Source: Actinobacteria bacterium IMCC19121 (GTDB lineage Bacteria > Actinomycetota > Actinomycetes > Nanopelagicales > Nanopelagicaceae). From it: 64,000 bases of DNA. The position numbers were made by a program, and so were the translations under genes. The stretch covers positions 992,001-1,056,000 of the forward strand of contig CP015605.1 in the NCBI GenBank assembly GCA_002284895.1, in the 5' to 3' direction. How positions within the stretch are numbered: the stretch's first letter is position 1; the number at the start of each line of letters is the position of its first letter. This document shows, in pieces, positions 24,846 through 41,262 of the stretch. Under the pieces are notes generated by a model. It searched no databases. It saw nothing but the letters and a program-made list of their open reading frames with translations, and had not been told where the DNA came from.

Positions 24846-25853
24846 ATGCGCCAAGAAGATGTCTCACAATGGGTTAAAGATGCCCAAGCAGCCTTTGGCG
24901 CCGCTACAGATTTAGATTCGCTTAAAGCTGCTCGCTTAGCCCACGCTGGAGACAAGGCACCTATCTCTCTTGCTTCACGAGGACTTGGATCCTTGTCGCC
25001 AGATGAAAAAGCTAGCTTTGGCAAAATTATTGGGGATGCGAAGGCCGCAATTGCACAAGCACTTGCTACGGCAACAGAAAAACTTGAAGCGGAGCGCGAT
25101 AAGAAAGTTTTGCTGGAAGAAGTTGTCGATATTACTTTGCCCGTTAATCGCAGACACCGTGGTGGTTTACATCCGATTTCGATTATTAAAAATGAAGTCT
25201 CAGATTTCTTTATTGAGCAGGGTTATGCAGTTGCCGAAGGACCAGAGCTTGAATCAGGGTGGTTGAACTTTGATGCGCTCAACATTCCTGCAGATCATCC
25301 AGCTCGCACAATGCAGGATACATTCTTTGTTGAGCCAGTTGAATCTGGAATGGTCCTGCGAACTCACACATCACCTGTTCAAATTCGCACGATGCTGACT
25401 CAGACTCCACCTATTTATGTCATTTGTCCTGGGCGAACATTTAGAGCAGATGAGTTGGATGCAACGCATAGTCCAGTTTTTCATCAGGTTGAAGGCTTAG
25501 TTGTTGATGAGGGCATCACGATGGCCCACCTCAAAGGAACGCTGGATAACTTTGCCCGTCATATGTTTGGTCCTGATGTGACAACTCGGCTTCGCCCATC
25601 ATTTTTCCCATTCACTGAACCAAGTGCTGAGGTCGACATATTCTTTAACAATCGCTGGATTGAATGGGGCGGTTGTGGAATGGTCAATCCAAAGGTTCTG
25701 CAAAGTTGCGGGATAGATACCGATGTCTACAGTGGCTTTGCTTTTGGTATGGGATTAGAGCGAACCTTGATGGTGAGACATGGCATTACAGATATGCATG
25801 ACATTGTTGAAGGAGATCTGCGCTTTACGCGCCAGTTCGGAGTGGGACTCTAG
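24846..25853 (+). CDS. pheS: Phenylalanyl-tRNA synthetase alpha subunit
   Basis: The catalytic subunit of the heterotetrameric class II synthetase. It has 335 residues. Class II motif 2 appears as CPGRTFRADELDATHSPVFHQ, and motif 3 as FGMGLERTLMVRHG. The substrate region FPFTEPSAEVDI is also present. The stop TAG and the GTG of pheT share a base, so both subunits are translated in a coupled way. Confidence 0.97.
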   Translation: MRQEDVSQWVKDAQAAFGAATDLDSLKAARLAHAGDKAPISLASRGLGSLSPDEKASFGKIIGDAKAAIAQALATATEKLEAERDKKVLLEEVVDITLPVNRRHRGGLHPISIIKNEVSDFFIEQGYAVAEGPELESGWLNFDALNIPADHPARTMQDTFFVEPVESGMVLRTHTSPVQIRTMLTQTPPIYVICPGRTFRADELDATHSPVFHQVEGLVVDEGITMAHLKGTLDNFARHMFGPDVTTRLRPSFFPFTEPSAEVDIFFNNRWIEWGGCGMVNPKVLQSCGIDTDVYSGFAFGMGLERTLMVRHGITDMHDIVEGDLRFTRQFGVGL

Positions 25854-28309
25854 TGCGCGCACCTCTATCGTGGATTAAAGAGTTTGTAGACATCCCTGCA
25901 AAAGTAAGTGCAGATGAGATCTCTGATGGCCTTATTCGAGTTGGCTTTGAAGTTGAAGAAATCATCTACCAAGGCGCTGATTTAACTGGCCCACTTAAGT
26001 TTGCAAAGGTTCTCTCAATTGAAGAGTTAACTGAACATAAGAAACCGATTCGCTATGTGGGTCTTGATTGTGGCGAAAAAGAAACGCGCTACGTCATTTG
26101 CGGAGCTACTAATTTTGCAGTGGGGGACATGATTGTTGCAGCTCTTCCAGGAGCTGTGTTGCCTGGCAATTTTGCAATTAGTGCCCGTGAGACTTATGGC
26201 AAAACTTCTAATGGAATGATCTGCTCTGCTCGCGAACTAGGCATTAGTGATGAGCATGCTGGCATCATGGTTTTCTCAGAAGACGATGCAAAGATTGGTG
26301 CCGATGCAATCAAAGGCTTGCAGATTAACGATGTGATCTTTGATGTGGCAGTTAATCCAGATCGCGGCTATGCATTGAGCATTCGAGGAATAGCACGTGA
26401 GGTTGCTGGCTCACTTGGACTTACGTTTACAGATCCAGTCGATGCGCTGCGTTCACTAAAGTTCTCAGAAACCGGCAAAGGTGTGAGTGCAAAGATTGAG
26501 GATAAATCTTCAGCCTCTGTTTTCTATCTCCGAACAATGTCTAATTTTGATCCAAAGGCCACAACGCCCCTATGGATGCGCAGACGAATTGAAAAGATGG
26601 GAATGCGCTCTATTTCACTTGTTGTAGATGTTACTAACTACGTCATGTTAGAACTTGGCCAACCATTGCACGCTTTCGATAAATCAAAAATCAAAGGTGG
26701 GCTCACAGTTAAACGCGCTGGCAAGGCACAAAAATTTGTTACCTTGGATGGGCAAGAGCGCACATTAGATCCAGATGATTTGATGGTGTGTGATGATGAT
26801 CAACCGTTGGCATTAGCTGGAACTATGGGTGGGCTTTCATCGGAGATCACTCAAACTACGACTGAGATTGCTTTGGAAGCTGTTCGATTTGATCCCGTGT
26901 GTATTGCTAAGAATTCACGCAGACACAAACTCTCATCAGAGGCATCAAGGCGTTTAGAACGAAGCGTTGATCCTTCATTGGCCGAGTTCGCATCTGCCAG
27001 ATTCGTTCAACTACTCACCGAACACAGCTCAGCGGTTCATGTGGCAACTGTTGTGGCAGGCGAGCCGATTTACCCGGCAGTTGTGAAGATTGACCCCACA
27101 TACATATCTAGGATTCTGGGCTTTGAGGTTTCAAATGCTGATGTAGCCCGCATCCTTCGCCTTATTGGCTGCGATGTGGATGAGAAGAGTTGGACCGTTG
27201 ATCCACCATCATGGCGCGCAGATTTAGTTGGTGTTGCAGATTTTGCTGAAGAAGTAGCGCGCATGATCGGTTACGACAAAATTCCTTCTATCTTGCCACC
27301 ACGACCTCTACACGCATCACTAACCCCAACTCAAAAGCGTCGCAGAGCCGTTGCGACAATGCTTGCAAGTCGTGGTTTAGCCGAAGTTCAAACTTTCCCA
27401 TTCACAAACCAAGAAACTATTGATGCGATGGGCTTTGTTGGCGAACGTGCTTCAACCTATGCAATTGCTAACCCAATGTCGGAAGAGTTTCCATTGATGC
27501 GAGTGCATCTAGTTCCGGGGTTGATTGAGGTTGCACAGCGCAATATCAGCCGCGGGGCGAAAGATTTTGCAATCTTTGAAATGGGATCCATTTTCCGAAG
27601 TGCTCAGAAATTAGTACCTGCAATTTCACCTGACTTGTCCAAGCGACCAAGTGAAAAAGTAATTGAAGAGATTTTTGCTTCCGTTCCTCCACAGGCTTAT
27701 CACGTGGCTGGTTTGCTCGTAGGAAAAGTTGAGAATGAGAATTGGCAAGGAAAAGCTCGCGCATATACCTGGCACGATGCAATTGAATATGCCCAAGATA
27801 TTTTGGCGCTGTGTAATCTGGAGTGGAGTATCAAGCACTCTGATTTTGCACCGTGGCATCCTGGTCGATGCGCAGAATTAATCGTTGATGGAAAAGCTGT
27901 GGCACATGCCGGAGAGCTTCACCCACGAATTATTGCTAAATATGGATTACCTGAGCGAAGTGTGGCATTTGCTGTTGGATTAAGCGCGCTTCCAGATTCT
28001 TCCCTCGTACGCCCAACACGTGTTGGAACTATGCCTGCAGCGTTGCAAGATGTGGCCTTAATTGTTGATGTGAAGGTGACGGCAGCTGAAGTTCAAGCGG
28101 CGTTAACCGAGGGTGCTGGAGATTTACTTGAATCTATTTCTCTCTTTGATCGCTACGACAAGATTGGCGATGGCAAGATCTCTCTAGCTTTCACTCTGGT
28201 CTTTAGAGCACCTGATCGCACGTTAACTGGCGATGAGGTTTCAGCCATGCGTGAGGCAGCTACTGCGGTGGCGGCCAAGAAGTGTGGGGCAGTAGTCCGC
28301 ACCGCATAA
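25853..28309 (+). CDS. pheT: Phenylalanyl-tRNA synthetase beta subunit
   Basis: The 818-residue partner of PheS. It contains the N-terminal tRNA-binding OB domain (CGATNFAVGDMIVAALPGA), the B3/B4 editing region, the B5 domain, and the C-terminal anticodon-binding domain (LFDRYDKIGDGKISLAFTL). Length is normal. GTG 25853 overlaps pheS by one base. The stop codon lies inside the first of two ARG-box-like sites for the arg operon. Confidence 0.96.
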   Translation: MRAPLSWIKEFVDIPAKVSADEISDGLIRVGFEVEEIIYQGADLTGPLKFAKVLSIEELTEHKKPIRYVGLDCGEKETRYVICGATNFAVGDMIVAALPGAVLPGNFAISARETYGKTSNGMICSARELGISDEHAGIMVFSEDDAKIGADAIKGLQINDVIFDVAVNPDRGYALSIRGIAREVAGSLGLTFTDPVDALRSLKFSETGKGVSAKIEDKSSASVFYLRTMSNFDPKATTPLWMRRRIEKMGMRSISLVVDVTNYVMLELGQPLHAFDKSKIKGGLTVKRAGKAQKFVTLDGQERTLDPDDLMVCDDDQPLALAGTMGGLSSEITQTTTEIALEAVRFDPVCIAKNSRRHKLSSEASRRLERSVDPSLAEFASARFVQLLTEHSSAVHVATVVAGEPIYPAVVKIDPTYISRILGFEVSNADVARILRLIGCDVDEKSWTVDPPSWRADLVGVADFAEEVARMIGYDKIPSILPPRPLHASLTPTQKRRRAVATMLASRGLAEVQTFPFTNQETIDAMGFVGERASTYAIANPMSEEFPLMRVHLVPGLIEVAQRNISRGAKDFAIFEMGSIFRSAQKLVPAISPDLSKRPSEKVIEEIFASVPPQAYHVAGLLVGKVENENWQGKARAYTWHDAIEYAQDILALCNLEWSIKHSDFAPWHPGRCAELIVDGKAVAHAGELHPRIIAKYGLPERSVAFAVGLSALPDSSLVRPTRVGTMPAALQDVALIVDVKVTAAEVQAALTEGAGDLLESISLFDRYDKIGDGKISLAFTLVFRAPDRTLTGDEVSAMREAATAVAAKKCGAVVRTA

Positions 28310-28338
28310 ATATGCAGGTGTTTGCATAAATATCAACT
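28301..28338 (+). promoter_or_regulatory. Paired ARG boxes (candidate ArgR operator)
   Basis: Two 18-base boxes (28301-28318 and 28321-28338) share GCATAAATAT and are separated by 2 bases, so their centres are 20 bases apart. Each resembles the known TGAAT-N4-ATTCA consensus: CGCAT-AAAT-ATGCA and TGCAT-AAAT-ATCAA. The second covers the -35 element of argC. The 2-3 base spacing of paired boxes is the classical arrangement for hexameric ArgR, and argR is in the downstream operon. Confidence 0.7.
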
Positions 28339-28356
28339 AGAAGATATCCTAGGGCC
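28322..28356 (+). promoter_or_regulatory. argC promoter, leaderless
   Basis: TTGCAT (28322-28327), a 17-base spacer and TATCCT (28345-28350) form a good housekeeping promoter. Only 6 bases separate the -10 from ATG 28357, so the transcript is probably leaderless. The -35 lies within the second ARG box. Confidence 0.65.
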
Positions 28357-29379
28357 ATGAAAACAGCGGTCATCGGTGCAAGTGGCTATGCCGGGGGAGA
28401 ACTCCTTCGTTTGCTAGCAGTACATCCCCATTTTCAAGTTACGGCCATTAGCGCCCATTCAAATGCTGGCGAGCTAGTCACATCCGTCCATCCGCACCTA
28501 ACAACTCACAGCGGTGAAAAGTTTTTGGCTGTTTCAGAGATTGATTTTTCAGATATCGAACTAGTTTTCATCGCCCTGCCACATGGTGAGTCAGCCTCAC
28601 TTATTGCAAAGTTTCCAGCTGCTACAAAAATTGTTGATCTTGGTGCAGATTACAGATTAGAAGATGCTTCTGCGTGGGAGAAATACTATGGGGGAGTCCA
28701 TGCCGGAGCTTGGGTATATGGGTTACCTGAACTTAGCGCGGGACAACGTCAAGCCATCGCTAAGGAAAGCAAAGTCGCCAATCCTGGTTGCTATGCAACC
28801 GCCATTACTTTAGGAATTGCACCTGCAGTTAATCATGTTGATGTTAGCGATGTTGTTGTTGTCGCAGCATCAGGAACAACTGGGGCAGGTAGAAGCGCCA
28901 AGATTAATCTGATTGCAAGTGAAGTGATGGGCTCTTTGACCTCATATAAGTTCGGCGGAGTTCATCAACACACACCAGAGATTGAGCAGGCTGTGTCAGC
29001 TATTGCAAAAAAGCCGGTGAAGATCTCTTTCACACCAATTCTTGCACCAATGCCCCGTGGCATTCTGGCAACAATTACTGCCAAGTTGAACAAGCCAATG
29101 AATTCAAAAGAAGCACACGAACTTTTTGCAAAGCATTACGCAGGAGAATACTTCGTGGATGTGTTGCCTATTGGTCAGATGCCTAAGACAGGTTCTGTTA
29201 CTGGATCCAATAAGGTTCAAATCCAGGTTGCTGTTGATGAACACACTGACCGTTTAGTCATCAGTGTTGCCTTGGATAATTTAGGAAAAGGCGCAGCAAG
29301 TCAGGCAATACAAAATGCAAACATCATTACCGGTTTTCATGAAGGTTCTGGTCTATCAACTGATGGCTTAGGCGCATGA
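28357..29379 (+). CDS. argC: N-acetyl-gamma-glutamyl-phosphate reductase
   Basis: The third step of arginine biosynthesis. It has 340 residues. The NADP-binding start is VIGASGYAGGELLRLL, and the catalytic cysteine is in VANPGCYATAI. The histidine region FGGVHQHTPEI is present. It is the first gene of argCJBDRH and overlaps argJ by 4 bases. Confidence 0.97.
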   Translation: MKTAVIGASGYAGGELLRLLAVHPHFQVTAISAHSNAGELVTSVHPHLTTHSGEKFLAVSEIDFSDIELVFIALPHGESASLIAKFPAATKIVDLGADYRLEDASAWEKYYGGVHAGAWVYGLPELSAGQRQAIAKESKVANPGCYATAITLGIAPAVNHVDVSDVVVVAASGTTGAGRSAKINLIASEVMGSLTSYKFGGVHQHTPEIEQAVSAIAKKPVKISFTPILAPMPRGILATITAKLNKPMNSKEAHELFAKHYAGEYFVDVLPIGQMPKTGSVTGSNKVQIQVAVDEHTDRLVISVALDNLGKGAASQAIQNANIITGFHEGSGLSTDGLGA

Positions 29380-30518
29380 AACTACCTCAAGGCTTTGTGG
29401 GAGCTGCATGTGCTGCAGGCTTAAAAAGCACAGGTGCACTTGATTTAACGCTTATTGAAAACAAAGGGCCGTCCTTTTTCGGCACAGCGGTTTTCACATC
29501 AAACAAAGTAGTTGCAGCACCGGTCATTTGGAGCAAGCAAGTAGTTAAAGATCAGATCGTTAGAGCAGTAGTGCTCAACTCCGGCGGGGCCAATGCTTGC
29601 ACTGGACCTCAAGGATTTGCTGACACTCATGCAACTGCCGAGTTAGTAGGGGAGTTACTAGAAGTTTCATCGGGTGAAGTGGTTGTTTGTTCCACTGGCC
29701 TCATTGGTGAATTACTACCAATGGCAAAGATTGAAAGTGGCATTAAATCTATTGCATCAGTTCTTAAGTCTGAGTCACTTCAGGAGTGCGCACAAGCCAT
29801 CATGACAACGGATTCAGTGCCAAAGATTGCACAAGCCAGCCTAGGCAAAGTTGAAGTAGCAGGTATTGCCAAGGGTGCCGGAATGTTAGCTCCGGCTTTA
29901 GCAACAATGCTTTCGGTTGTTATGACGGATGGGCTTGTCAGTTCAAATGCGGCCAAGATATTTGCACAAGTAACGGATCGAACTTATAACCGAATTGATT
30001 CAGATGGTTGTACATCAACTAATGACACAGTGCTCTTTATGGCATCAGGTGCCTCAGGACAGACACTCTCTGATTCAGAATTAGAGGAACTGTTAATGAA
30101 AGTTTGCGGTTCACTTGCGGCACAACTCATAGAAGATGCTGAGGGCTCTACCAAGTCAGTTGCGATTACAGTCAACAGTGCAGTGAGTGAAAAGGATGCT
30201 GTTGAAGTAGGCAGAGCATGTGCTCGCAACAACTTACTCAAGGCAGCAATCTTTGGTGGAGATCCAAACTGGGGCAGAGTGTTAGCTGCCGTTGGCACAG
30301 CAGATGCCCATATGGATCCGCTAACCATTGATGTCGCGCTTAATGGTGTTCAAGTTTGTTCTAACAGCGCACCGGATGCCGATAAGAACGACGTAGATTT
30401 CAGTAATCGGTTGGTAGAAATAGTCATAGATCTAAAGGTTGGCAATGCAAGTGCAACTGTGATGACTAATGATCTCTCACATGACTATGTTCATGAGAAC
30501 TCGGCGTATTCAACATGA
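29376..30518 (+). CDS. argJ: Ornithine acetyltransferase ArgJ
   Basis: Transfers the acetyl group from N-acetylornithine to glutamate, recycling it; some ArgJ enzymes also acetylate glutamate with acetyl-CoA. The 380-residue precursor self-cleaves before Thr177 in KGAGMLAPALATML. The C terminus has the usual KNDVDFSNRLVEIVIDL region. No argA is seen, so a bifunctional role is plausible but unproven. It overlaps argC and argB by 4 bases each. Confidence 0.96.
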   Translation: MKLPQGFVGAACAAGLKSTGALDLTLIENKGPSFFGTAVFTSNKVVAAPVIWSKQVVKDQIVRAVVLNSGGANACTGPQGFADTHATAELVGELLEVSSGEVVVCSTGLIGELLPMAKIESGIKSIASVLKSESLQECAQAIMTTDSVPKIAQASLGKVEVAGIAKGAGMLAPALATMLSVVMTDGLVSSNAAKIFAQVTDRTYNRIDSDGCTSTNDTVLFMASGASGQTLSDSELEELLMKVCGSLAAQLIEDAEGSTKSVAITVNSAVSEKDAVEVGRACARNNLLKAAIFGGDPNWGRVLAAVGTADAHMDPLTIDVALNGVQVCSNSAPDADKNDVDFSNRLVEIVIDLKVGNASATVMTNDLSHDYVHENSAYST

Positions 30519-31300
30519 TCGTCGTTAAATTCGGTGGCCATGCCATGAAGGATGAAGACGGGGCATTTGCTCAGGCAATTGCGGCTGCTCAAGCAACAGG
30601 GGAATACGTTGTTGTTGTGCACGGCGGCGGACCTCAAATCGATGCGGCGTTGAAAACTAAAGGAATTGAGAGTTCATTCATTGGTGGCTTTCGCTACACG
30701 ACTCCCGAGATTTTTGAAGTTGTTGAGACAGTCCTAGCTAATGAAGTCGGCCCAAAGGTTGCACAAACTCTTGTTAAAGGTGGAATTAAGGCGCAAGCCC
30801 TATCTGGTCGCACACTGCCAACTCTGATCGCGAGAAGGAAAACTAGATTGGTAGATGGAAGTAATGCCGATCTAGGGCGAGTGGGCGATGTTGTCAGGGT
30901 CGATGTTTCGGCGCTAAACGAATTAGTCCGTAAAGGAATAGTTCCAGTCGTTGCACCCATTAGTAGTGATGAAGCCGGCTCTGGTGGATTGAATGTGAAC
31001 GCTGATTTAGCTGCTGCAGCTATTGCTGGAGCGTTAGATGCTTCTGCACTCATCGTTATGACTGATGTTGCTGGGATTTATCGTAGTTGGCCAGATACTT
31101 CATCTTTGATTGAATCTATTTCATCGGATGAGCTTAATTCTATAAAGGCAGGGTTTGCCGAAGGTATGGCACCTAAAGTTCAAGCTGCACTGGACGCAGT
31201 TGCAAGTGGTGCCAAAGCGGTAAGAATTATTGATGGCACGGATCCAAATAGCTTTGCGGATGCATTGCTGAGTAAAGGTGGAACATTGGTGATCGCATGA
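30515..31300 (+). CDS. argB: N-acetylglutamate kinase
   Basis: Phosphorylates N-acetylglutamate, the step usually inhibited by arginine. It has 261 residues, somewhat shorter than typical arginine-sensitive kinases with an extended N-terminal helix, so feedback control may be weak (inference). Motifs are VVKFGGHAM, VVHGGGPQID and LNVNADLAAAAIAGAL. It overlaps argJ and argD by 4 bases. Confidence 0.95.
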   Translation: MIVVKFGGHAMKDEDGAFAQAIAAAQATGEYVVVVHGGGPQIDAALKTKGIESSFIGGFRYTTPEIFEVVETVLANEVGPKVAQTLVKGGIKAQALSGRTLPTLIARRKTRLVDGSNADLGRVGDVVRVDVSALNELVRKGIVPVVAPISSDEAGSGGLNVNADLAAAAIAGALDASALIVMTDVAGIYRSWPDTSSLIESISSDELNSIKAGFAEGMAPKVQAALDAVASGAKAVRIIDGTDPNSFADALLSKGGTLVIA

Positions 31301-32466
31301 AAAACACAGATCTCATAAAGCAGTGGAAGAGCACAACACAGAATAATTATGGTGTGCCATCCATAGCTCTTGTAAAGGGCAAAGGAATCGTCGTCACTGA
31401 TGCTGATGGAAAACAGTACTTAGACTTTTTAGGTGGAATTGCAACGAGTGTATTGGGTCATGCGCATCCAGCAATTGTGAAGGCGGTTAGCAAGCAGATT
31501 GCACAGTTAAGTCATGTGAGCAATTTCTATGCCCATCCCAACGCCCTAGCGTTAGCGGCAAAGTTAGTTGAAATGAGCGGTGATAAGAGTGCCCGTGTTT
31601 TCTTTTGCCAATCTGGCGCTGAAGCTAATGAGGCGGCGCTAAAGCTTTCTCGTCGCACAGGACGTAGTCGGATTATTGCTGCGCAAGGTGCTTTCCACGG
31701 AAGAACTATGGGTGCACTTTCACTGACAGGCCAACCTGCAAAGCGCGAACCATTTTTGCCTCTGGTTAAAGGTGTTAAGCATGTTGCATTTGGTGACATC
31801 GAAGCGATGCGCCGTGCAATATCAAGAAAGACTGCAATGGTGATTCTGGAGCCAATCATGGGAGAAGCCGGAGTGATCATTCCATCAGTTGATTATTTGG
31901 CACAGGTGAGAACACTCTGCGATAGATATGGTGTGTTGTTAGTAATTGATGCTGTGCAAACAGGCATGGGTCGCACAGGTGATTGGTTTGGATATGAGTA
32001 CTCAGGGATAAAGCCTGATGTGATTACGTTGGCTAAAGGATTAGGTGGTGGGTTGCCATTAGGGGCGATGATCGCACTCGGAAAAGCAGCATCACTTTTT
32101 AAGGCCGGAGATCACGGCACAACTTTTGGCGGCAATCCCGTAACTACAGCGGCAGGTCTTGCAGCCATCGCAGTCATTGAAAAAGAGAAACTTATTGAAA
32201 AGACTGTTCTTCATCATGAATATCTTTTAACAGAGTTAGCGATGGTCAAAGGTGTGAAGGAAGTGCGCGGAGCTGGTTTGCTGATTGGAATTGAGTTGGA
32301 TACACCTACTGCAAAAGAGTTTGCGGCCAAGATGGCAAAGGCTGGGGTTTTAGTTAATGCGGCCAATGAATCAACTATTCGAATTGCACCTGCTCTCATT
32401 GTTACTCAGGCGCAGCTCGTGAAATTCGTTTCCATCTTTAGAAAGGTGATCAGTGATGGCAAGTAA
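31297..32466 (+). CDS. argD: Acetylornithine aminotransferase
   Basis: A PLP aminotransferase (class III) that makes N-acetylornithine. It has 389 residues. The PLP lysine is in ITLAKGLGGGLPLGAM, and FHGRTMGALSLTGQ and VIDAVQTGMGRTG are also seen. The 3' end overlaps the argR start by about 11-14 bases. In canonical actinobacterial clusters argF follows here; it is absent. Confidence 0.96.
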   Translation: MKNTDLIKQWKSTTQNNYGVPSIALVKGKGIVVTDADGKQYLDFLGGIATSVLGHAHPAIVKAVSKQIAQLSHVSNFYAHPNALALAAKLVEMSGDKSARVFFCQSGAEANEAALKLSRRTGRSRIIAAQGAFHGRTMGALSLTGQPAKREPFLPLVKGVKHVAFGDIEAMRRAISRKTAMVILEPIMGEAGVIIPSVDYLAQVRTLCDRYGVLLVIDAVQTGMGRTGDWFGYEYSGIKPDVITLAKGLGGGLPLGAMIALGKAASLFKAGDHGTTFGGNPVTTAAGLAAIAVIEKEKLIEKTVLHHEYLLTELAMVKGVKEVRGAGLLIGIELDTPTAKEFAAKMAKAGVLVNAANESTIRIAPALIVTQAQLVKFVSIFRKVISDGK

Positions 32467-32938
32467 TGCAACGAATGTTTCTGCGCGCAGAGCTAAGGCT
32501 ATTGCACTGATTCAATCTGGAGTTATTCATTCCCAGTCTGATTTAGTTGTGGCACTCAAGAAGAGTGGATATCGAGTTACTCAGGCAACTGCTAGTAGAG
32601 ATCTCGAAGAAATTGGCGCGGTTCGTGCTCGTGGTCGAGATGGTGAATCTGTCTACCAAATTAGAGAGTCCTCTGATGACGCTCTCTCTCGTATCAATCC
32701 TGTCCCATCAAAGTTGATTCTCTCCGTTGATCACAGCGCCAACTTGGCCGTGATTCACACACCACCAGGAGCTGCTCAGTTCGTTGCAAGTTCACTTGAC
32801 CACGCCAATCTCACAGGTGTTATTGGCACGATTGCAGGCGACGACACGATTATCCTTGTGTCCAAGAAAGCAACAGGTGGAGCGCAATTAGCGAAAGAAT
32901 TACTCGCTTACGCAGCAACTAAGAATGGGAGAAAGTAA
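32456..32938 (+). CDS. argR: Arginine repressor ArgR
   Basis: Represses arginine genes with arginine as co-repressor. It has 160 residues from ATG 32456; a GTG at 32453 is equally in frame. The N-terminal winged helix includes SQSDLVVALKKSGYRVTQATASRDLEEIG, and the C-terminal hexamer and arginine-binding domain includes GTIAGDDTIILV. It is encoded inside the operon it probably controls through the paired boxes at 28301-28338. Confidence 0.95.
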   Translation: MASNATNVSARRAKAIALIQSGVIHSQSDLVVALKKSGYRVTQATASRDLEEIGAVRARGRDGESVYQIRESSDDALSRINPVPSKLILSVDHSANLAVIHTPPGAAQFVASSLDHANLTGVIGTIAGDDTIILVSKKATGGAQLAKELLAYAATKNGRK

Positions 32939-34366
32939 ATGGCGCTCTGGGGTGCACGCTTTAGTGATGGCCCAGCTGATGCTGTCTTTGCACTCTCTCG
33001 CAGTGCTCACTTTGACTGGCGTTTAGCTCCTTATGACATTCGCTCATCCCTAGCTCACTTATCTGTTATGGAATCCAGCAAGTTGGTAGCAAAGGAAGAT
33101 GCGGCAGCTATTCGCGGTGCTCTCAAAGAATTAGCAGTTGAGGTATCAAAGGGCTCATTTGTGGCGCAAGCAGATGATGAAGATGTTCATAGCGCTTTGG
33201 AGCGTGGGCTAACTGCCAAGCTGGGCGCAGTTGGGGGAGCACTTCGTGCTGGGCGCTCTCGCAATGATCAAGTCACAACTGATCTACGTCTCTTTGCCAT
33301 CGATCACATGTTGGAAGTTGCCTCATTAATAACTGCGCTGAATAGTGCAATTTTGAACAAGGCCAGTGAGTATGTCAACGATAGTGCTCCAGGGTTTACT
33401 CATATTCAACATGCACAGCCCGTTTCATTTGGACATGAATTAGCTAAGCACGCACATGCTTTTGCAAGAGATTTGGATCGCATTAACGACTGGTTAAAGC
33501 GCACATCAGTGAGCTCTCTTGGGGCTGGTGCACTTGCCGGTTCTTCACTTCCACTAGATCCAGCACACACTGCAAAAGAGCTTGGTTTTGACTCTAGTTT
33601 TGCTAACAGTATTGATGCCGTTAGTGATCGTGATTATGTTGCCGAAGCATTATTCATCTGCGCAACAATTGGTCTGCACTTATCTCGCATCGGTGAAGAG
33701 TGGACGTTGTGGGCTTCAACTGAGTTTGCTTGGGCAAAAGTGGCCGATGAATACTCAACGGGTTCATCGATTATGCCTCAGAAGAAAAATCCAGACATGG
33801 CAGAACTTGCACGAGGCAAATCTGGTCGACTGATTGGCAATCTGGTTTCGGTCATGACAATGCTTAAGGGATTGCCCTTTGCCTATAACCGCGATCTGCA
33901 AGAAGATAAAGAACCGTTCTTTGACAGTATCGATACATTGCTCCTAACGTTGCCCGCAGTAACTGGCATGGTTGCCACTACCGATTTTGATCGCAAAAAA
34001 ATGGCGCTGGCAGCACCAACTGGCTTCTCTCTTGCTACAGAAATTGCAGATTATTTGGTTCGAAAGAATGTTCCTTTTGCTACTGCGCATGAATCTGCTG
34101 GAAAATGTGTTGCGTTGTGTGAAAAGGGTTCACGTCAATTGCATGAACTTAGCGATGATGAGTTTAAATCTATCCATCCATCTCTAGATGGGGGAGTTAG
34201 AGACGTGCTAAACGTGGCCGGAGCATTGAGTTCACGAACAACTGCCGGAGGAACTGCGCCGGCGTTAGTGGCTGAGCAAATTAAGAGCGCGCTTAAAGAA
34301 AATGCGACGCAATCTAAGAAAATAGCCGACAAAGCGAAGGCCTTTTCAGAGATGATGAGTTCATGA
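32939..34366 (+). CDS. argH: Argininosuccinate lyase
   Basis: The final step of arginine synthesis, releasing fumarate. It has 475 residues. The fumarase-superfamily signature [16 protein letters not shown] is present, as are [13 protein letters not shown] and [15 protein letters not shown]. It begins directly at the argR stop and overlaps tyrS by 4 bases. The usual argG upstream neighbour is missing. Confidence 0.97.
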
Positions 34367-35628
34367 ACCTTCTAGAAGATCTACGCTGGCGCGGGCTATT
34401 AGCCCAGTCCACTGATGAGGCGGCTCTGCTTGAATCATTGAAAAAACCCATCACTTTGTATGTGGGCTTTGATCCAACTGCGCCATCACTACATGTGGGC
34501 AATCTCGTAGTTCTTCTTGTTCTACGCCGTTTTCAATTAGCTGGTCACACTCCTATTGCCCTAGTGGGCGGTGCTACAGGATTAGTGGGAGATCCCAGCG
34601 GTAAGAATGAAGAGCGCACACTCAACAGCACTGAAATCGTTGAGGGCTGGGTCAATCGTATTCGCACACAGGTTTCAGCCTTCCTGGATTTTAGTGAAGC
34701 TAAAAATAAGGCCATTGTTGTTAACAATCTTGATTGGACTTCACCCTTGAGTGCCATTGAGTTTTTGCGCGATATTGGCAAGCACTTTAGTGTCAACCAG
34801 ATGCTTTCTAAAGATTCAGTCTCGGCCAGATTAGAAGCTGGTGGAATTTCATACACAGAGTTTTCTTATCAAGTTTTGCAGTCCTATGACTTCTTAGAAC
34901 TCTACCGCCGTAATAACTGCACATTGCAATTAGGCGGCTCAGATCAATGGGGCAACATTGTTGCTGGCTTAGATTTGATTCGCCGCGTTGAGCAGGGAAG
35001 TGGTCATGCACTCACTGTGCCACTGTTGACCAAAGCCGATGGAACTAAGTTTGGTAAAACAGCTGGGGGATCAGTCTGGCTAGATCCTGCGATGACTTCT
35101 CCTTATGCCTTCTTCCAATATTGGTTAAACACTGATGATAAAGATGTCATCAACTTCCTTAAGGTCTTTTCTTTCAAATCTCATGAGGAAATTACGGCTC
35201 TTGAAAATGCACATAAGGAAAATCCTGGTTTGCGTGAAGCCCATCGCGCCCTTGCCCGTGAATTAACTGCACTCGTGCACTCACAAGCAACAACTGATCG
35301 AGTAGAAGCAGCCGCAAAGGCGTTATTTGGTCAGGGAGATCTCACAGAACTTGATGAAGAAACATTGGCAGGTGCACTGGCAGAACTACCTCGCACGACT
35401 GTGTCGAAAAATGATGCGATTCCAACCTGGGTGGATCTCTTAGCAGCAACTGGTGTTGTTGACTCAAAATCAGCAGCGCGCCGTATTGTTAAAGAAGGTG
35501 GCGCATATCTCAATAATGAAAAGATCTTCGGAGAAGATTTTGCACCTCAAAAATCTGACTTTTTATGCGGTAAATATGCGGTTTTGCGAAAAGGCAAGCG
35601 AGACTTAGCCGCTGTGGAGCTGATCTAA
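34363..35628 (+). CDS. tyrS: Tyrosyl-tRNA synthetase
   Basis: A class I synthetase of 421 residues. The HIGH-like motif is PSLHVGNL, and the KMSKS-like motif is KFGKT in [16 protein letters not shown]-terminal S4 RNA-binding domain contains [19 protein letters not shown]. The overlap with argH means arg biosynthesis and tyrS share a transcript. A terminator follows at once. Confidence 0.97.
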
Positions 35629-35640
35629 AAATCGACCTTT

Positions 35641-35673
35641 TTGGCCTAAAACGCTAGCGGGCCAACGTTTTTT
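35641..35673 (+). terminator. Intrinsic terminator after tyrS
   Basis: The arms TTGGCC (35641-35646) and GGCCAA (35660-35665) pair perfectly around a 13-base loop. The sequence CG and TTTTTT (35668-35673) follow. It ends the long argC-tyrS unit. Confidence 0.75.
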
Positions 35674-36126
35674 GATGCATCAGAAGTGGTCGAAAAGCTC
35701 CGAAAACCCCGATTTGACCCCCCTGGGCCTGGGGGTTATAGTTTCCCTCTTGCTGTGAAACGGACGATTGAGGCCGAACAGCATTGATTCCCAGATCTAG
35801 AGCTTCATTGAGCGCGGTTTGACCGTGCCTGCGTGTATGCACTAGGTTTGGCGGTCTGCCCTGAAAAACAGGAGAAATCCTGGGACTCAGTGCGCATCCG
35901 TACCTTGAGAACTCAACAGCGTGCTAATAAGTCAATGCCAATATGTGGCTCTATTTGTCATGCTTTTAGTAGCAAGAAACCAGTGTTTTACACTGCTTTG
36001 ATAGATATCCACGGCAAATAAATACTTCAATGAGGTATGACCGTTAAAAGTTATACCCGTTGATTTCCTTTGGTAATAAGACAAAATAAACGTTAGTTTG
36101 TTTGTCTGTACGCCAGATAAAACTTT
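35674..36126 (+). promoter_or_regulatory. rRNA operon promoter and leader region
   Basis: A non-coding stretch. Promoter P1 has TTGACC (35714-35719), 17 bases, and TATAGT (35737-35742); its spacer is a GC dyad CCCCC-N7-GGGGG (35719-35735). Promoter P2 has TTGACC (35819-35824), 18 bases, and TAGGTT (35843-35848). Downstream, TTGAGAACTCAACAGCGTG (35905-35923) matches a motif that recurs before 23S and 5S. The rest is AT-rich leader, with no gene visible. Confidence 0.75.
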
Positions 36127-41036
<4,910 letters not shown>

Positions 41037-41046
41037 AAAGTTGCTA

Positions 41047-41059
41047 CGCGTCCACTGTG
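41047..41059 (+). other. 23S processing stem, 3' arm
   Basis: CGCGTCCACTGTG pairs perfectly with 37919-37931 across the whole 23S gene. A second hairpin, TCTCGAGA-N5-TCTCGAGA (41064-41084), follows directly. Confidence 0.8.
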
Positions 41060-41093
41060 TGGCTCTCGAGATACGGTCTCGAGATCCACGATC

Positions 41094-41123
41094 AAATGAA
41101 AAGGCTTTGACCCCTTTTCATTT
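41094..41123 (+). other. Perfect hairpin between 23S and 5S
   Basis: AAATGAAAAGG (41094-41104) and CCTTTTCATTT (41113-41123) pair over 11 bases around an 8-base loop. It could be a processing signal or a partial terminator that lowers 5S read-through. A degenerate leader motif, GAAAACTCAATAGCG (41130-41144), lies just before 5S. Confidence 0.65.
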
Positions 41124-41143
41124 TAGACCGAAAACTCAATAGC

Positions 41144-41262
41144 GTTTCGGCGACCATAGCGAGAGGGAAACACCCGGTCCCATTCCGAACCCGGAAGTTA
41201 AGCCTCTCAGCGTCGATGGTACTGCAAGGGTGACCTTGTGGGAGAGTAGAACGTCGCCGGAC
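41144..41262 (+). rRNA. rrf: 5S ribosomal RNA
   Basis: About 119 bases. GTTTCGGCGACCATAGCG at the 5' side pairs with the 3' end CGTCGCCGGAC. The internal CCCGGTCCCATTCCGAACCC and GGGAGAGTAG segments are standard for 5S. Ends are accurate to a few bases. Confidence 0.95.

Follow-up and report, generated by a model that had tools for sequence, protein, structure and literature searches.

A conserved ARG-box pair predicted to act as the ArgR operator over a leaderless argC promoter in Nanopelagicaceae

The arginine biosynthesis genes of Actinobacteria bacterium IMCC19121 were studied in a window of 64,000 nucleotides, corresponding to positions 992001–1056000 of a single-contig genome of 1,506,415 bases. 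The genes argC-J-B-D-R-H-tyrS follow each other without gaps (Table 1), with argR being the fifth of the run. This agreed with the first-pass annotation, which had placed argR within the operon, and the gene product is ArgR by both of its Pfam domains and by the motif GTIAGDDT. The argR gene of E. coli, unlike that of IMCC19121, is not known to lie in a biosynthetic operon. The last gene, tyrS, is probably carried on the same transcript as argH. Unless it has an internal promoter, this essential tRNA synthetase gene may be controlled by arginine. No obvious promoter was seen directly 5' of tyrS (34363–35628). A complete 16S-23S-5S rRNA operon (36126–41262) follows downstream, some 500 bases past tyrS.

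Table 1. Genes and predicted regulatory elements of the argC region (window coordinates).
Feature	Position	Strand	Details
pheT stop codon TAA	28307–28309	+	within box 1; pheT ORF 25853–28309
ARG box 1	28301–28318	+	18-mer ACCGCATAAATATGCAGG; kept in relatives
ARG box 1 core 14-mer	28303–28316	+	CGCATAAATATGCA; 13/14 to TGCATAWWTATGCA
ARG box 2	28321–28338	+	18-mer TTTGCATAAATATCAACT
ARG box 2 core 14-mer	28323–28336	+	TGCATAAATATCAA; 12/14 to TGCATAWWTATGCA
-35 element TTGCAT	28322–28327	+	formed by box 2
-10 element TATCCT	28345–28350	+	6 nt before argC ATG; predicted leaderless
argC	28357–29379	+	TIGR01850, 374.2 bits (cut-off 233.6)
argJ	29376–30518	+	NF003802
argB	30515–31300	+	TIGR00761
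argD	31297–32466	+	NF002874
argR, arginine repressor	32453–32938	+	GTG start overlapping argD; PF01316 and PF02863
argH	32939–34366	+	TIGR00838
tyrS	34363–35628	+	TIGR00234; 4-base overlap with argH

The ArgR protein displays the two domains that define the ArgR/AhrC family, the N-terminal DNA-binding domain (PF01316, 60.0 bits for a cut-off of 27) and the C-terminal arginine-binding domain (PF02863, 82.2 bits for a cut-off of 25). Its GTIAGDDT motif, implicated in arginine binding and oligomerisation, aligned with that of solved arginine repressors; in corynebacteria it is described as indispensable for binding arginine (excerpts of PMC5839063). The 13 matches of ArgR among solved structures were all arginine repressors, the best being 3ere (E 1.7e-33). 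The whole-length NCBIfam cut-offs were not reached (NF002880, 155.5 of 200 bits; TIGR01529, 130.0 of 130.45 bits). We have treated this shortfall as a cut-off effect and not as a missing feature, since both Pfam domains passed and all of the structure matches were arginine repressors. ArgR was detected in 56 of the 61 family genomes. In three genomes argR and argC were jointly missing (G013, G047 and G059), and in two others (G032 and G042) argC and the boxes were present with no ArgR match, perhaps because argR was lost in draft assembly.

Upstream of argC, direct reading showed GCATAAATAT at 28304–28313 and again at 28324–28333, forming two imperfect palindromes with a period of 20 bp. When taken as 18-mers, the two ARG boxes are separated by 2 bp. 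Box 2 of IMCC19121 has a degenerate right half (TGCATAAATATcaa) and is only half palindromic. The promoter reads TTGCAT, 17 nt, TATCCT, 6 nt and the argC ATG at 28357. The first-pass annotation had described 18-base boxes of shared sequence, 2 bases apart, overlapping the -35 of TTGCAT-N17-TATCCT, with the first box reaching into the pheT stop codon; the direct reading reproduced all of this exactly, including the position of the TAA inside box 1. The locus thus has the traits of a tandem ARG-box operator, in that its two palindromic boxes are offset by some two turns of the helix (period of 20) and overlap the promoter of an arginine gene, the promoter itself being predicted from sequence. 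A consensus sigma-70 scan of positions 25800–36200 returned 7 sites, for 13.4 expected. The argC promoter was not among them, because TTGCAT is a weak -35.

We have then investigated the conservation of this arrangement. The argC upstream regions of 60 family genomes (IMCC19121 included) and of 79 of the 80 loci of a named collection were gathered, giving 139 regions. Locus L140 and genomes G046 and G058 were set aside as the argC start was missing from their matches. Removal of 11 duplicates left 128 distinct regions, which include close relatives. Pairs were scored by applying TGCATAWWTATGCA twice, with a threshold of at least 22/28. Lack of conservation in relatives had been named beforehand as evidence that would speak against the boxes; instead, a pair at or above the threshold was found in 125 of the 128 distinct regions, IMCC19121 included, versus none of 2,560 dinucleotide shuffles. 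The three pairs below the threshold (L075, L078 and L089, scoring 21 each) all come from one genus with weaker boxes. An iterated matrix gave a similar picture, with 57 of 60 regions above its threshold, having been fitted on those same data. In the 64-kb window the pair pattern occurred once, without mismatch, for 0.01 occurrences expected at up to 3 mismatches. Taken with the shuffles, this count ruled out a chance origin of the pair. The spacing between boxes was 20 bp in 121 of the 125 pairs, 21 bp in two and 30 bp in two. The best pairs of L050 and L088 were spaced 30 bp instead of 20 bp, that is, one helical turn more.

The predicted promoter was also widely kept. A TAnnnT -10 ended 6 nt before the start codon in 115 of the 128 regions and 7 nt before it in 10 (125 together), a placement suited to transcription starting at the start codon, and a Shine-Dalgarno-like core was seen in just 4 of the 128. 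Based on these two counts, a leaderless argC mRNA, as predicted in the first-pass annotation, is well supported, with its start site deduced from the position of the -10. Leaderless mRNAs are described as common in mycobacteria in the excerpts consulted of two studies (PMC3898074, PMC4633059). Three regions had no TAnnnT at 6–7 nt (L087, L088 and L163). The first two become regular when the start codon is placed 6 nt upstream. L163, with a box 2 that reaches almost to the ATG, is a true exception. In the named collection, the nearest relatives by ArgC belong to actinobacterial MAGs, the best with 96% identity; ArgC of Candidatus Planktophila versatilis MMS-IA-79 (L148) is 66% identical to that of IMCC19121, and that of IMCC25003 (L161) is 68% identical. 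Five records titled as Bifidobacterium breve or Streptomyces griseus MAGs (L145, L147, L151, L163 and L195) hold argC regions of the acI type, and their names look wrong.

Taken together, these features make it very probable that the box pair serves the argCJBDRH(-tyrS) operon as its arginine-responsive operator; ArgR binding, arginine dependence, repression and the exact transcription start are what we infer from the layout. With plentiful arginine, ArgR produced from the same operon, as a hexamer by analogy, would bind both ARG boxes. The bound protein would block RNA polymerase, since the -35 is formed by box 2, with box 1 immediately 5' of it. At low arginine, ArgR would be released and a leaderless mRNA would start at or beside the argC ATG. 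The presence of argR in the operon would render repression self-limiting. It could be argued that the boxes owe their conservation chiefly to a role as AT-rich promoter DNA (an UP-like element followed by a -35), with ArgR binding being secondary or absent, as the box region is AT-rich and box 2 also serves as the -35. We consider this extremely improbable: box 1 is palindromic and about as conserved as box 2, the 20-bp period is held while the pair shifts relative to the promoter (see below), ArgR is encoded in the operon, and the layout matches that of known ArgR operators. The wide conservation supports a circuit of arginine regulation in freshwater bacteria that do not lend themselves easily to experiment.

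The overlap with pheT was less general than the pair itself. The pheT TAA occupies the identical register of box 1 in 69 of the 128 regions; overall, the end of pheT overlaps box 1 in 73 and does not in 53, giving 126 assignable regions, with the remaining 2 lacking an assignable upstream frame. The overlap is therefore common and not universal, and it is probably economical rather than mechanistic. In an alternative reading, most arg operon transcripts would come from pheST by read-through, and ArgR bound to box 1 would chiefly be a roadblock where pheT stops. Only 47 bp lie between pheT and argC, no terminator-like site was listed between them, and pheT terminates within box 1 in the 69 regions just mentioned. 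The conservation of a -10 at 6 or 7 nt from the start codon favours a local start instead, and we regard read-through as a highly unlikely main source.

To define how many sites ArgR may have, we have used a pair model (R1) built from 39 sequences, the alignment leaving out 4 of 43 non-redundant pairs (L083, L087, L170 and L185); this model does not detect boxes that stand alone, and pairs of another spacing may escape it. In the 1.5-Mb genome of IMCC19121, R1 found the argC site alone, even at E ≤10 (150 of 700 candidates scored). The match appeared on both strands, since the site is palindromic. Among the 61 family genomes, 55 had a match at E ≤0.1, all at argC save for three weak extras: G028:C1:640387 (E 0.0019) and one each in G037:C26 and G058:C137 (E ~0.06), the latter being the sole match of its genome. 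The six genomes without a match were the three that lack argC, one lacking the argC start (G046) and two divergent ones that have argC and boxes and were missed by R1, G005 for its weak boxes and G033 for its 30-bp spacing. Among 148 genomes of the class, at E 0.01, all 11 family members and none of the 137 others were matched. R1 is thus lineage-specific and uninformative on the operators of other families.

The first-pass annotation had asked for the same boxes upstream of argF and argG. None was found near the starts of argF (1500300) or argG (706226) in the IMCC19121 genome. The nearest 14-mers with at least 10/14 were, for argF, at 1500003 (10/14, about 300 bp before the gene), 1499728 (10) and 1499458 (11), and, for argG, at 705954 (10/14, some 240 bp upstream of the likely ATG) and 705137 (10). 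Both genes (argF at G000:C1:1500297 and argG at ~706190) lie far from the arg operon, and argG seems leaderless too (TAGACT, 6 nt, ATG). Hence, "complete" is too strong for the compact autoregulated circuit claimed initially, as argF and argG are elsewhere and have no boxes near their starts. Since R1 finds the argC site alone and argF and argG are without boxes there, the operator of its own operon is probably the one paired operator of ArgR, which on this evidence would cover argCJBDRH and perhaps tyrS. This suggests a regulator stripped to a single paired operator.

A search for single boxes on the + strand revealed five sites with 2 mismatches elsewhere in the genome. Three of them (598591, 779898 and 952153) fall within long reading frames and one (6662) outside such frames; we do not think the latter a likely ArgR site. 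The fifth, at 395710–395723 (12/14; G000:C1, L093), begins 25 bases before a possible ATG at 395735 of a gene that, by domain scan, carries an FkbM methyltransferase domain. It is probably a chance match and likewise not thought a likely ArgR site.

By analogy, the IMCC19121 circuit would belong to an already known kind, its box geometry being that of the footprinted argC operator of Streptomyces clavuligerus. In the excerpts consulted, DNase I footprinting of the S. clavuligerus argCJBDR operator is reported to cover two 18-nt ARG boxes 2 bp apart, an arrangement conserved at argC, argG, arcB and argH of S. coelicolor (PMC3293853). As in these Streptomyces argCJBDR operons, the site lies upstream of argC and the operon includes argR; the boxes, alternatively described as two contiguous 20-bp boxes, and the GTIAGDDT motif of ArgR are also shared (excerpts of PMC3293853 and PMC5839063). 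The regulons differ, with S. coelicolor being credited in the same excerpts with adjacent boxes at argG, argH and arcB and with many further targets (PMC3293853, PMC5839063), whereas R1 finds one paired site in IMCC19121, and argH, which has its own boxes in S. coelicolor, is inside the arg operon. In wild-type S. coelicolor most arg genes are described as showing no significant arginine-dependent repression, yet they rise without ArgR (excerpt of PMC3293853), so that arginine dependence need not be strong.

Two other systems can be compared, as far as the excerpted text of PMC3293853 describes them. The E. coli operators also consist of two 18-bp boxes, nearly always on the promoter; unlike in IMCC19121, a gap of 3 bp between the boxes is usual (2 bp at argR) and many operons are targeted (PMC3293853). 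In B. subtilis, AhrC is of the same protein family and targets the same gene, argC, with boxes 11 bp apart and a third one inside argC, and it also activates catabolic genes, both points differing from IMCC19121 and its ArgR as proposed here (PMC3293853). In a limited literature search, the excerpts consulted mentioned neither a one-pair regulon nor an offset ladder of the kind described next. No paper came up on leaderless transcripts of Nanopelagicales, and none of the papers listed treated ArgR of this lineage, the phasing of operators among relatives or the start sites of Planktophila.

The position of the pair relative to the start codon fell into four classes about 10 bp apart. Among the 128 regions, box 1 started at -64 in 3, at -56 to -53 in 92, at -45/-44 in 28 and at -35 in 5, with three offsets set by hand (L087 and L088, whose start codon was taken 6 nt 5' of the match, and L078, with the pair taken from the iterated matrix). 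A mechanical search of 296 family genomes over 31 distances (-34 to -64) at 20-bp spacing matched 160. Among the 150 matches listed, the offsets were -35 (5), -45 (32), -53 to -56 (112) and -64 (1), with none between; many of the genomes are shared with the 128-region set, and the searched range ends at -64. On a quick single-gene ArgC tree, with 43 of 122 forks open, an arbitrary root and the short L089–L091 left out, the four classes needed at least 7 changes. Parsimony on exact offsets gave 21 changes, of 1 bp (13), 2 bp (1), 9 bp (1), 10 bp (4), 11 bp (1) and 19 bp (1), and none of 3–8 or 12–18 bp.

The boxes seem to serve additionally as promoter elements, with a different element in each class. 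Base counts were taken from the 123 regions with 20-bp spacing, and Fisher p-values on them ignore shared ancestry. In the -54 class, a T precedes box 2 in 87 of 90 regions, giving the TTGCAT -35, versus 9 of 33 in the other classes; before box 1 of the same class this holds for 2 of 90 regions. Where the pair lies at -45, box 2 abuts the -10, which is preceded by TGn in 19 of 26 regions. In the -35 class the TAnnnT -10 lies within box 2 in 4 of the 5 regions, the exception being L163. Box 2 thus seems to supply the -35, an extended -10 or the -10, depending on the class. Such doubling in each class fits promoter-element reuse; the T and TGn counts support it while being compatible with phasing, and the ladder also fits a demand that ArgR stay on one helix face.

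The ladder, as distinct from the operator itself, might also be mutational in origin. TGCA recurs every 10 bp, at 0, 10, 20 and 30 in many members, and this period makes slippage possible, with 10-bp units being gained or lost without any selection on helical phase; the 30-bp box spacing of two regions is in line with this. Against it, the measured length change falls between box 2 and the -10, a stretch that is not box-like, and the parsimony gave many 1-bp changes and none of 3–8 or 12–18 bp. On balance we find this origin of the ladder rather unlikely. A bolder reading, somewhat less likely than not, is that the Nanopelagicaceae ArgR operator is locked to one helix face of a leaderless promoter and has moved in whole turns (-64, -54, -45 and -35), the same box taking a different core-promoter job at each stop, and that the pair is ArgR's only paired operator in these small genomes, with a regulon that is essentially its own operon. 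The offsets offer a natural series on whether repressors need a fixed face of the DNA or whether their positions reflect boxes that double as promoter elements. In a subgroup (L163, G352, G384, G395, G396 and G412) a single base separates the end of the pair from the argC ATG and there is no -10 apart from the boxes, so that box 2 would have to hold it.
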